Assembly: GCA_902763555.1 (NCBI GenBank)
Contig: CACWSI010000004.1
Coordinates: 1 to 37,715 of the forward strand
Direction of reading: 5' to 3'
From: an uncultured Erysipelotrichaceae bacterium
Lineage (GTDB): Bacteria; Bacillota_I; Bacilli_A; RFN20; CAG-826
DNA: 37,715 bases
Part shown: positions 34,837-37,715 of the stretch, one piece after another
Position numbering within the stretch: the stretch's first letter is position 1
Layout: each line of letters opens with the position of its first letter
Program-made: the position numbers and the translations under genes
Notes under the pieces: model-generated
Seen by the model: only the letters and a program-made list of their open reading frames with translations
Database searches by the model: none
What the model was told of the DNA's origin: nothing

Positions 34837-34982
34837 TCTTCATGTGTTAGGACAGTCGCAATTTGCCTCAGTTGACTAAAAATGACTTTCCTCGCAAGGC
34901 ATTAGTCGGAGCATATGAAGAAGTCCTAAATCTAGGGCTAAATCAATGTAAATTAAGTCGTCTATAATGGGCGGCTTTTTTT
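34837..34982 (+). ncRNA. Candidate structured RNA downstream of rpsR
   Basis: This gene-free stretch has strong complementary segments: TCTTCATGTG (34837-34846) with CATATGAAGA (34912-34921), TTAGGAC (34847-34853) with GTCCTAA (34923-34929), GACTAA (34874-34879) with TTAGTC (34902-34907), and TGCCT (34864-34868) with AGGCA (34897-34901). Each pair of helices is in a-b-a'-b' order with almost no linker, so they look like competing folds rather than one knot. It ends in a terminator. It could be the 3' part of the rpsR message or a separate RNA; no promoter is clear and I recognise no known RNA family. Confidence 0.4.
34956..34982 (+). terminator. Terminator after rpsR and the foldable stretch
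   Basis: AGTCGTC (34956-34962), loop TATAATG, GGCGGCT (34970-34976), seven T. Closely resembles the terminator at 37449. Confidence 0.9.
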
Positions 34983-35158
34983 GTGCTGTCTGGGCGGTCT
35001 GTCTGGCGTCGTCAAGGTGTGCACGTTTCGTTGACTAAAAAAATTTTAATTTTCTCTTATTATGTAGTATAAAATTTGCATTTTTCTTAAATTAAATATC
35101 CTTTTCTTCTATAATAAAAGTGTTAATTAATATAGGAATTAATATAGGGGGTTTTCTT
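34983..35158. other. Intergenic region with GC-rich patch and repeat
   Basis: No gene seen. 34984-35030 is unusually GC-rich, with near-repeats of GTCTGG and GGCG. GTTGACTAAAAA at 35030-35041 repeats 34871-34882 exactly. From 35037 it is extremely AT-rich up to the lipoprotein promoter. Confidence 0.6.
35110..35115 (+). promoter_or_regulatory. -10 box of the lipoprotein gene
   Basis: TATAAT, with weak TTAAAT 17 bp upstream. Leader about 40 nt, ending in GGGGG before ATG 35159. Confidence 0.55.
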
Positions 35159-37153
35159 ATGAAAAGAAGAAAATTGATATTCTTAGGATTAATGCTTAGC
35201 GGGTTAATCCTCTCTTCGTGTGGCCATAATCAAGAGCCAGCAAAGCCAACAAAACCTGTTGAACCAACTTATTTAACAGTTAGTGAAGCGGTTGTTTTAG
35301 CTAATCAAGTGGGAACAGAAGGCACTAGTGAAAAGCAATATGTAACAGGAACAGTAAAAAGCATTAGCAATCCTACATATGGCGAAATGTATATCACTGA
35401 TGGCGTTAAAGACTTATATGTCTATGGCGTTTATTCAAGTGATGGCACAACAAAATATAGCGATCTAACAACTAAGCCATATACGAATGATGAAGTATTC
35501 TTATATGGATTTGTGAAAGCATATAATGGTAATCCAGAGATGGGAAAATCTTGGTTAATGAAAATGGTGCCTCATCAAGATGATGCTGATGTTCATGATT
35601 ATGAGTCAATGAATATTAATAACGCTAGAGGGGCAGCAAATAATAGTAAAGTCCTTGTTCAGGGAGTTGTTGCTACAATTACTTATTCTAACGGTAAAGT
35701 TCCTAGTGGTGTTTATCTCGTTGATGATACTTCTTCAATTTATGTCTATAGTCCAGAGATTGCTGGAAGAGTGGAAGTTGGTGAAGAAGTTAAAGTCGCT
35801 GGTACTAAAACCGAATACATCCTTGAAAGCGAACTTGGCTACGCTCAAACATTTGGCTATCAAGGTTCTATCCAATTAGATAAGGCAATCTTTGTAAGTT
35901 CTTTAGGAAAGAATAAATATTTCTTAAAGAGTTGGATACAAGAAACAACCATGAAAGATATCATGGAAACTCCATTAACAAATAACATTACAACTTTAAT
36001 TCATAAAGTTACTGCAATCGTTAATAAAGTTCCTGGAACAGGATTTGTTAACTATTACATTAATGATTTAGATAATGAAACAGGCTCATATGTTTATACA
36101 TTATGTAATGGAAGCGATTTCAATTACTTAGATGCATATGATGGAAAGATTTGCACAGTTTATGTTGCTGTTCATAACGCAAAATCAACAAACTCTGGCA
36201 TCTTCTATCGTTTAATGCCAATCAAAGTAGAAGAAAATACAACCTTCTCAATGACTGATGAACAAAAAGCACAATTTGCGTTAGATTATTACGCTTCTAA
36301 ACAATTCTTAGCGGAATATAGTTCTGATCCATCATTAGAATTATTTACTTCTATTAGTAATGAATATATTCCATTTAGTGATGTTGCAGTTTCTTATACT
36401 TCTAATAGTGAGCTAGTTACCTTTAATGAAGAAAACGACAAATTAGTTATGCATATCGCTAACGGTGTTGCTCAAGTTAATGTCACTATGACAGCAACAT
36501 ATAACGGAGTTACTGTTAATAAAGTCATTTCCTTTAAAGTTATTGATTCAGTACTTCCTGAAACAGAATCTATCGCTGATGTGATTAACGAAGAAGACGG
36601 TACTTCTGTTTGTGTTAAAGGAATCGTTATGTCCTCATTAGTGAATCAAACCGGATTCTATATCAATGACGGAACTGGAGTTATCGCAGTTAGAACCACT
36701 AAAGAAGAGATGAAAGGAATTGCCATTGGTAATGAAGTAGTAATGGAAGGTAGTAGAATACATATCGTCAAATCAGGATCTAGTAACGTTGGCCAATCCT
36801 GTATTGATAATGCGACATGTGTTGTTAACTTATTTGGCAACCATCCATATGATAAATCAACATTTATCACTAATATGACATTCGATGAAATCGTTACTAG
36901 TGAAAAGAATAAACAAGCAACAGAAGATTTAACATGTAATGTCTATGTTGCTAAATGTCATTTAAGAAAATCAGGTTCTCAATATTCTACAAACTATTAT
37001 TTGAGTAATGCTGCTCATGATAAAGAATTCTTGCTCTACGCTGGTAGTGGTACTCAATATTCAGCGTTTGATGCTTTCAGTGATGACCGTGAAATCACTG
37101 TTGAATTCATGCTTGTTGATTGGAATACCAACCACAATCTTAAATACACTTAA
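35159..37153 (+). CDS. Surface lipoprotein with about five OB-like modules and one Ig-like domain
   Basis: 664 aa. A lipoprotein signal peptide (MKRRKLIFLGLMLSGL) ends in the lipobox LSSC with Cys21, then a Pro/Lys/Glu linker. OB-like modules are judged by a repeated hairpin: GEMYITDGVKDLYVYG (75-90), GVYLVDDTSSIYVYS (184-198), VNYYINDLDNETGSYVY (297-313), GFYINDGTGVIAVRT (499-513) and TNYYLSNAAHDKEFLLYAG (611-629). Residues about 400-463 look like a bacterial Ig domain. Such OB lipoproteins are common on gut bacteria and may bind glycans or nucleic acids; no ligand can be named. I chose ATG 35159 for its GGGGG and intact signal peptide. Codon use is slightly more AT-rich than in the housekeeping genes. 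Confidence 0.87.
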   Translation: MKRRKLIFLGLMLSGLILSSCGHNQEPAKPTKPVEPTYLTVSEAVVLANQVGTEGTSEKQYVTGTVKSISNPTYGEMYITDGVKDLYVYGVYSSDGTTKYSDLTTKPYTNDEVFLYGFVKAYNGNPEMGKSWLMKMVPHQDDADVHDYESMNINNARGAANNSKVLVQGVVATITYSNGKVPSGVYLVDDTSSIYVYSPEIAGRVEVGEEVKVAGTKTEYILESELGYAQTFGYQGSIQLDKAIFVSSLGKNKYFLKSWIQETTMKDIMETPLTNNITTLIHKVTAIVNKVPGTGFVNYYINDLDNETGSYVYTLCNGSDFNYLDAYDGKICTVYVAVHNAKSTNSGIFYRLMPIKVEENTTFSMTDEQKAQFALDYYASKQFLAEYSSDPSLELFTSISNEYIPFSDVAVSYTSNSELVTFNEENDKLVMHIANGVAQVNVTMTATYNGVTVNKVISFKVIDSVLPETESIADVINEEDGTSVCVKGIVMSSLVNQTGFYINDGTGVIAVRTTKEEMKGIAIGNEVVMEGSRIHIVKSGSSNVGQSCIDNATCVVNLFGNHPYDKSTFITNMTFDEIVTSEKNKQATEDLTCNVYVAKCHLRKSGSQYSTNYYLSNAAHDKEFLLYAGSGTQYSAFDAFSDDREITVEFMLVDWNTNHNLKYT

Positions 37154-37196
37154 TTTTCAGTAAGCGTTGATAAAATGATTAGATACGGTTTGATAA

Positions 37197-37394
37197 TTGA
37201 AGAAAATTATTGATTATTGTGAAAAAAATGGAATCAAAAAATATGAAGTTCCAAAAAGAAAATTAAACATTAATAAGCTGTCTAACTCTATAAAACAAAT
37301 TGATCCAAACTTTGATCCAATAAAGGTGAGATTTTCCAATGATTTAGAACTAGTTAAACCATTTTCTTTGACAAATGAGGAAGGTAATTTTTAG
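37197..37394 (+). CDS. Uncertain short ORF (65 aa)
   Basis: Begins at TTG directly after an in-frame TAA, with no ribosome-binding site. The predicted peptide (KKIIDYCEKNGIKKYEVPKR at the start, FDPIKVRFSNDLELVKPFS near the end) looks protein-like in composition but matches nothing I know. It may be a decayed gene remnant, or chance. The terminator at 37449 could serve it or the lipoprotein. Confidence 0.25.
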   Translation: MKKIIDYCEKNGIKKYEVPKRKLNINKLSNSIKQIDPNFDPIKVRFSNDLELVKPFSLTNEEGNF

Positions 37395-37448
37395 ACAAAA
37401 CAGGAAAAATGGGTTTGGACGATCACACTTCAAAAAAGTAAGAAAATA

Positions 37449-37476: not shown

Positions 37477-37490
37477 GACTTAATCAATAT

Positions 37491-37550
37491 AAAAAAGGAG
37501 CCAAACCCACAATAACCACAAAGTAAGTTTGAGGAGCTCCGTTCTTGTGG
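37491..37550 (-). ncRNA. Candidate small RNA (about 60 nt) with own promoter and terminator
   Basis: Read leftward from a TATAAT promoter. The RNA starts CCACAAGAAC, then GGAGC (37540-37536) and CAAAC (37531-37527) pair with GTTTG (37506-37502) and GCTCC (37501-37497), leaving bulge TCCT, and a run of six or more T follows. CCACAA (37550-37545) can also pair with TTGTGG at 37521-37516 or 37512-37507, giving a pseudoknot or alternative fold. The exposed UCCUC resembles an anti-Shine-Dalgarno seed of trans-acting small RNAs. No ORF fits. No known family recognised. Confidence 0.55.
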
Positions 37551-37554
37551 CTAC

Positions 37555-37583
37555 ATTATAGCATATTTTTAAAAAGTGAATAT
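37555..37583 (-). promoter_or_regulatory. Promoter of the small RNA, with inverted repeat
   Basis: The minus strand has TGCTATAAT, a TGN-extended -10 (TATAAT at 37555-37560). Immediately upstream is an inverted repeat GCATATT...AATATGC (arms 37561-37567 and 37579-37585), which may be an operator. The -35 is poor (ATATTC). Confidence 0.6.
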
Positions 37584-37627
37584 GCTTAAGAATTAATTAA
37601 TAGTCGCCCGAAAAGGGGGCCTACGAC

Positions 37628-37697
37628 AATTAAAGTGGATTTAAGTGGGGACACCTAAATCTACCTGCCTAGGCTACAACATTAAAAGTGGAGACCC
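37628..37697. repeat. Cluster of AAGTGG repeats at the window edge
   Basis: Three related units: AATTAAAGTGGA (37628-37639), TTTAAGTGGGGAC (37640-37652) and ATTAAAAGTGGAGAC (37681-37695). The first and third are preceded by GCCTACGAC and GGCTACAAC, so about 21 bp is imperfectly duplicated. Also GTGGATTTA (37636-37644) can pair with TAAATCTAC (37656-37664). Spaced repeats like these occur at ends of IS21-type elements, but no transposase is in view. Confidence 0.4.
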
Positions 37698-37715
37698 TTC
37701 ACGCGTTATTGTGAG

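Follow-up and report, generated by a model that had tools for sequence, protein, structure and literature searches.

With a probability that we put at about 0.82, the minus-strand element at 37491..37550 is an orphan: it encodes the antitoxin RNA of a type I toxin-antitoxin family located on chromosomes, and the toxin gene that belongs to it has been deleted here. It lies near the end of the analysed window, which is a whole contig (G000:C4) of 37,715 nucleotides from an uncultured Erysipelotrichaceae bacterium. The type I small-hydrophobic-peptide features are present at homologous loci and absent from the window, where the toxin gene is missing, so that the locus would represent an orphan antitoxin and not a complete system.

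A minus-strand small RNA gene in the window

An earlier note, made from the sequence alone, had described the element as a free-standing small RNA (sRNA) gene with an extended -10, a T-run and no open reading frame (ORF). All of these features are confirmed on the minus strand (Table 1), no ORF being found within the element, and the promoter and hairpin recur together in relatives. The TG that precedes the -10 hexamer is found in 61 of 83 sRNA copies. The window promoter has no good match to a -35, which is why a scan for consensus promoters does not report it. We infer that transcription starts at about 37548-37551. The hairpin stem joins GGAGC (37540-37536) to the GCUCC within GGCUCC (37502-37497), and in the minimum free energy (MFE) structure UCCU (37535-37532) forms a bulge. 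The UCCUC that had been read as exposed in a bulge is thus bulged in its first four letters, but its last C is paired. The window sRNA folds moderately better than shuffled sequences (z -1.7; 8-10 of 200 shuffles equally good), and it is recurrence that sets the element above chance: 72 nt are identical in genome G001, and the family extends to 58 of 224 family genomes.

Table 1. Features of the small RNA locus in the window
Feature	Position	Strand	Basis or remark
Extended -10 TGCTATAAT, sRNA promoter	37563-37555	minus	sequence read
Candidate orphan antitoxin sRNA, T-run at end	37491..37550	minus	R1 match 37486-37562, E 9.6e-18
5' segment CCACAA, partner of hairpin loop	37550-37545	minus	sequence and covariation
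First loop partner TTGTGG	37521-37516	minus	register conserved in relatives
Second TTGTGG partner of CCACAA	37512-37507	minus	sequence read
Near-invariant AAGAAC	37546-37541	minus	identical in 70/83 copies
Terminator hairpin GGAGCUCCUCAAAC...GUUUGGCUCC	37497..37540	minus	MFE structure and stem covariation
T-run	37496-37491	minus	sequence read
Deletion scar	37485..37491		L007 291-421 and 623-683 match window on either side

Distribution of the small RNA family

A sequence-only model built from 18 sRNA copies (R1, comprising promoter, hairpin and T-run) detected the sRNA in the above fraction of the genomes of the host's family, representing 12 of its 35 genera. Searches of 279 genomes of the order and 395 of the class, which could overlook weak or diverged copies, gave matches exclusively within the host's own family. 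A DNA search within the same genus found the promoter and hairpin, frequently several times per locus; G004 has four sRNA copies within 0.8 kb, and G006, G014 and G015 have two each. Among named records, the exact promoter-sRNA pattern occurs in uncultured metagenome-assembled genomes (MAGs), many of them ruminant-derived, that are filed under Erysipelotrichaceae, Bacillales or Bacilli.

Two possible affiliations were rejected. A known RNA family found no match at the cut-off in Rfam, which returned no matches in the window at the gathering score and sub-threshold matches only for the window end and five homologous loci. A phage or plasmid origin was likewise discarded, as the sRNA found no counterpart among 72,556 plasmids and 50,697 phages. 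A single pattern match in IMG/VR was attributed to chance, lying inside a phage coding region without a terminator hairpin or toxin.

A convergent toxin-like gene in relatives

An ORF of 25-29 codons faces the sRNA from the opposite strand at 62 of 85 fetched copies, or 63 if one CTG start recognised by eye is counted. The ORF ends at the sRNA T-run/terminator and starts about 158 nt from the sRNA -10, which is itself conserved; thus, in 62-63 of the 85 copies, an antitoxin-type sRNA with its own promoter is convergent with the ORF, and the spacing between the two is constant. The ORF is preceded by its own, normally spaced Shine-Dalgarno sequence (SD) and by a leader in which AACUCGGAACGG occurs. 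Its product is a one-helix, hydrophobic peptide with the consensus MKxxxKExxxLLKxxLICLLLCLLxxLxK, in which Met1 and Cys18 are invariant among 28 chosen members and the best 17-aa stretch has a hydropathy of 2.2-3.6. Differences between the ORFs are distributed 30:20:50 over codon positions 1, 2 and 3, and the median dN/dS of 0.25 indicates purifying selection. Pfam and NCBIfam gave no family at a meaningful level for these peptides, and assignment to a known toxin family was rejected.

This layout corresponds to a type I toxin-antitoxin pair in which the peptide would be the toxic component. Judged from its sequences, the family is probably one of chromosomal type I toxin-antitoxin pairs, with the sRNA as antitoxin, and it has no match in Rfam, Pfam or NCBIfam. 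The earlier note had proposed a trans-acting regulator of translation with an anti-SD motif. The anti-SD-like motif is present and control of translation is likely, but trans action finds no support, because the target in relatives lies convergently right behind the sRNA, as for a cis-encoded type I antitoxin. In L047 (1501-1760), the place behind the sRNA is taken by another ORF, small and hydrophobic (MRLIKKTIILVIIAALLLTLVS), which lacks the family leader and is possibly another toxin type.

Covarying pairings

RNAalifold predicted no pairs in a first alignment whose 3' half was probably misaligned, and we therefore tested pairings by shuffling partners among 62 copies, a procedure that ignores shared descent and may overstate significance. 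The terminator stem covaries (z 7.3), as does the pairing between the 5' segment and the hairpin loop (z 9.5), which has at least four contiguous pairs in 59 of the 62 copies. The shuffle test gave no support to the internal stem P3 (GAC/GUC; z -0.4). With the first four nt after the -10 excluded, the 5' segment/loop pairing has a z of 5.6, and nt 1-4, which are probably upstream of the start site, covary too (2 of 20,000 shuffles as good). Because these first positions also covary, the pairing may operate within the sRNA, within the toxin strand or in the two alike. The suggested pseudoknot potential thus gains support, with the proviso that the pairing may belong to the toxin strand, and both proposed TTGTGG partners of CCACAA are in place. 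AAGAAC reads GUUCUU on the toxin strand, 3' of the hairpin, where it is the probable U-tract of a toxin-strand (bidirectional) terminator.

A candidate switch at the toxin Shine-Dalgarno sequence

The toxin mRNA probably starts at a stem-loop that is conserved as (N)GACAAAG[A/C]AAAGUC(N), the two sides of its stem changing in step (UGAC/GUCA, CGAC/GUCG, GGC/GCC). In many copies this 5' stem-loop lies downstream of TATAAT-like boxes. The leader CCUCNN pairs with the SD NNGAGG at 1.87 of 2 variable positions, as against 1.19 after shuffling, and the SD can therefore be hidden. The leader element GGAACGGAG resembles the sRNA 5' arm, the two forming an inverted repeat in the DNA, and for this reason the leader also complements the 3' end of its own mRNA. 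The latter pairing scores 20.0 against 17.4 in shuffles (z 8.7; 0 of 20,000), the partners in L007 being GGAACGGAG and CUCCGUUC.

We folded 45 predicted mRNAs, with a median length of 214 nt and an assumed 3' end, by partition function. The SD of the full mRNA had a median predicted probability of 0.113 of being unpaired; this fell to 0.0012 when the last 45 nt were removed, to 0.0032 when the 3' end was shuffled and to 0.0014 when the cognate sRNA, pairing over about 51 nt at the 3' end, was added. The cognate sRNA lowers predicted SD accessibility in 41 of 45 pairs, a result that depends on the exact 3' end assumed: taking 6 nt off gives 0.007, while 15 nt of readthrough makes no change. For L007, whose sRNA is that of the window, the prediction falls from 0.31 to 0.0015 with the sRNA. 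These folding probabilities suggest that the fold between leader and 3' end partly frees the SD and that the sRNA reverses this. A non-cognate sRNA also cuts predicted accessibility, to 0.003, so that sRNA specificity is not demonstrated by this calculation, and RNAcofold found no cognate preference in sRNA-leader contacts.

We propose the following mode of working. In intact copies, two convergent genes would end at one common hairpin; one would yield the sRNA, the other an mRNA of roughly 214 nt that encodes a membrane peptide of some 29 aa. The leader anti-SD can close the toxin SD, and the adjoining stretch can pair with the mRNA 3' end; the sRNA has the leader sequence in its 5' arm and is fully complementary to the mRNA 3' end. 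Without the sRNA, the leader would be folded on the mRNA 3' end and the SD partly free. Binding of the sRNA to that end would release the leader, whose anti-SD would then close the SD, and RNase III cleavage of the sRNA-mRNA duplex may contribute. A more far-reaching reading, conceivable though well short of probable, is that of a type I family whose antitoxin is a mimic of the leader and takes the mRNA 3' end so that the mRNA closes its own start, and whose toxins are repeatedly lost while orphan antitoxins may guard against remaining paralogues.

Toxin loss in the window and elsewhere

In G001, the nearest relative, this locus has the sRNA, next a stretch of about 200 bp containing the toxin, leader and toxin promoter, and then the rpsR operon terminator. 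These roughly 200 bp are absent from the window, where the sRNA runs straight into the terminator region of the adjacent rpsR operon. The window and G001 (L007) sRNAs are the same over the first 72 nt, promoter included, an identity that is compatible with the local level of about 97% and does not make conservation of the sRNA after toxin loss significant. Two further sRNA copies in the window genome, near rpsO (L005) and recA (L056), have also lost the toxin and keep its last codons, with translated remnants ...FSLLALLIK* and ...VICLFLCLLIKLV*.

Altogether 22 of the 85 copies lack an intact family toxin. By our own classification, two are otherwise intact and have a start codon changed from ATG to ACG (L051, copy 1501-; L061, copy 1405-), 11 are extra sRNAs spaced about 95-126 nt beside another pair, eight are solitary (including L047, with its different small ORF) and one is cut by a contig end. 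When such a pair decays, the order open to it is toxin first and antitoxin afterwards. Array sRNAs without a toxin directly before another copy are seen at L023, L041, L051, L058 and L059, and further at L066, L067, L068, L069 and L075; some extra array sRNAs show decayed 5' ends.

The surroundings hold other differences. An intact family toxin, MKQLKELKLALVLIVICLFLCLLLKLV, is present in the window genome at G000:C40 (L108) 1-208, where a second contig-end repeat replaces the antitoxin side. A 99-bp repeat at 37617-37715 reaches the end of the window; it is found at the ends of C7, C20 and C24 and in other genomes of the genus, interrupts a terminator hairpin that is intact in G001, and is probably the end of a mobile element inserting in terminators. 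Relative to G001, the window also has about 2.6 kb more at 34843-37427, including an ORF for a putative lipoprotein of 677 aa, between the rpsF-ssb-rpsR operon and its terminator.

Alternative explanations

The same family could operate in another mode, with the sRNA covering the SD directly and/or a 3' duplex triggering mRNA decay, as in par_pAD1 and txpA/RatA, and with the leader/3'-end pairing as a by-product of the inverted repeat. We regard this as a serious contender, not far below an even chance. The sRNA CCUCNN covaries with the SD NNGAGG (1.5 paired positions out of 2, against 0.96 after shuffling), although this signal may merely follow from sRNA and leader being mutual copies. The approximately 51 nt of complementarity at the mRNA 3' end also speak for this mode, as does the 3'-end overlap found in every type I pair known from Gram-positive bacteria up to 2014 (PMC4147584). 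Against a by-product, the leader/3'-end pairing covaries in its own right (z 8.7).

Other readings concern the window locus itself. The orphan sRNA could have been retained because it regulates in trans or protects against other family toxins. Such retention would agree with an sRNA that is intact including its promoter, with the absence of the toxin from all three sRNA copies of a genome that has a further toxin at G000:C40, and with the lowering of predicted SD accessibility by non-cognate sRNAs. We nevertheless consider it unlikely: the local identity of about 97% accounts for 72 identical nt, the window sRNA ranks 61 of 83 sRNAs in predicted pairing with the C40 leader, and the antitoxin side of C40 is hidden by the contig-end repeat. 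Neutralisation of the C40 toxin in trans by the window sRNA was dropped on the latter two grounds. It is very improbable that the toxin is missing through faulty assembly of a fragmented MAG. The genome is in 82 contigs and the contig end, about 150 bp off, lies in a repeat common to other contig ends, but the deletion scar is inside the contig, two other copies have different toxin truncations beside other genes, and toxin loss of the same type occurs in other genomes. Least credible of all is that the element is only the terminator hairpin of an upstream gene, a possibility that the earlier note had itself raised for a gene beyond the window. Hairpin and T-run do make a terminator and the contig end blocks the view further upstream, yet across 12 genera a conserved -10 lies directly 5' of the hairpin, and promoter and hairpin travel together beside varied upstream neighbours.

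Significance

A type I antitoxin gene orphaned by toxin deletion, and the pairs to which it is related, would make known a toxin-antitoxin family, uncatalogued and often tandem, in a clade of Bacilli that are uncultured and come mostly from the rumen. Dozens of natural variants make the predicted SD-closing switch testable by mutation and compensation. The repeated loss of toxins with the antitoxin kept reveals a decay route of such pairs and calls for caution, as intergenic 'orphan sRNAs' can be leftovers of toxin-antitoxin pairs.

Comparison with known type I systems

A literature search on type I systems and Erysipelotrichaceae-like names, in which subscription papers were thinly covered, found nothing relevant. 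The closest precedents are bsrG/SR4 and par_pAD1. In bsrG/SR4 of the B. subtilis SPbeta prophage, the antitoxin acts at the mRNA 3' end and the distant SD closes tighter (PMC4147584; PMC5848175; PMC8309996), from 4 to 8 bp (PMC4147584; PMC5848175). The family described here is similarly a convergent type I pair with 3'-end binding and remote SD closure, both predicted in our case. However, the bsrG toxin is unrelated and has 38 aa, the bsrG/SR4 overlap is longer (about 120 nt), the descriptions of bsrG/SR4 consulted contain no leader-mimicking inverted repeat, and the new family is chromosomal, with no phage link found.

In the E. faecalis par_pAD1 system (Fst/RNA II), two RNAs, one of about 230 nt and one of 40-65 nt, converge on a bidirectional terminator; the mRNA begins with a 5' stem, and a leader stem-loop hides its SD (PMC7472228). 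The new family shares the convergence and, as predicted, the RNA sizes, the 5' stem and the SD-hiding leader stem. Its hairpin, flanked by the T-run and, on the other strand, by GUUCUU, may likewise act as a bidirectional terminator. The Fst toxin signature consists of a Trp after the helix, a P/D/S/TXXXG motif and a charged C-terminus (PMC7472228); the peptide alignment of the new family lacks it (Trp, PXXXG, charged C-terminus). The par_pAD1 repeats are direct, making sRNA and leader complementary, whereas here the long element is an inverted repeat that makes them alike, and only the short CCUCNN/NNGAGG match is direct.

The aapA1/IsoA1 toxin mRNA folds back between its 5' and 3' ends and is inactive at full length. 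A long-range 5'-3' fold-back also keeps the full-length toxin mRNA of hok/Sok inactive (PMC4147584). Fold-back is common to these systems and the new family, but here it is predicted to open the SD instead. The E. coli ldr/rdl loci combine tandem chromosomal genes for small hydrophobic toxins with an sRNA of about 60 nt (PMC4147584). The new family has the same tandem chromosomal copies, small hydrophobic toxin gene and sRNA size of about 60 nt; unlike its sRNA, Rdl overlaps the ldr 5' UTR, and the peptides are unrelated. We class these loci as a new family of type I systems whose regulatory design is a variant, and the window locus as an orphan antitoxin.
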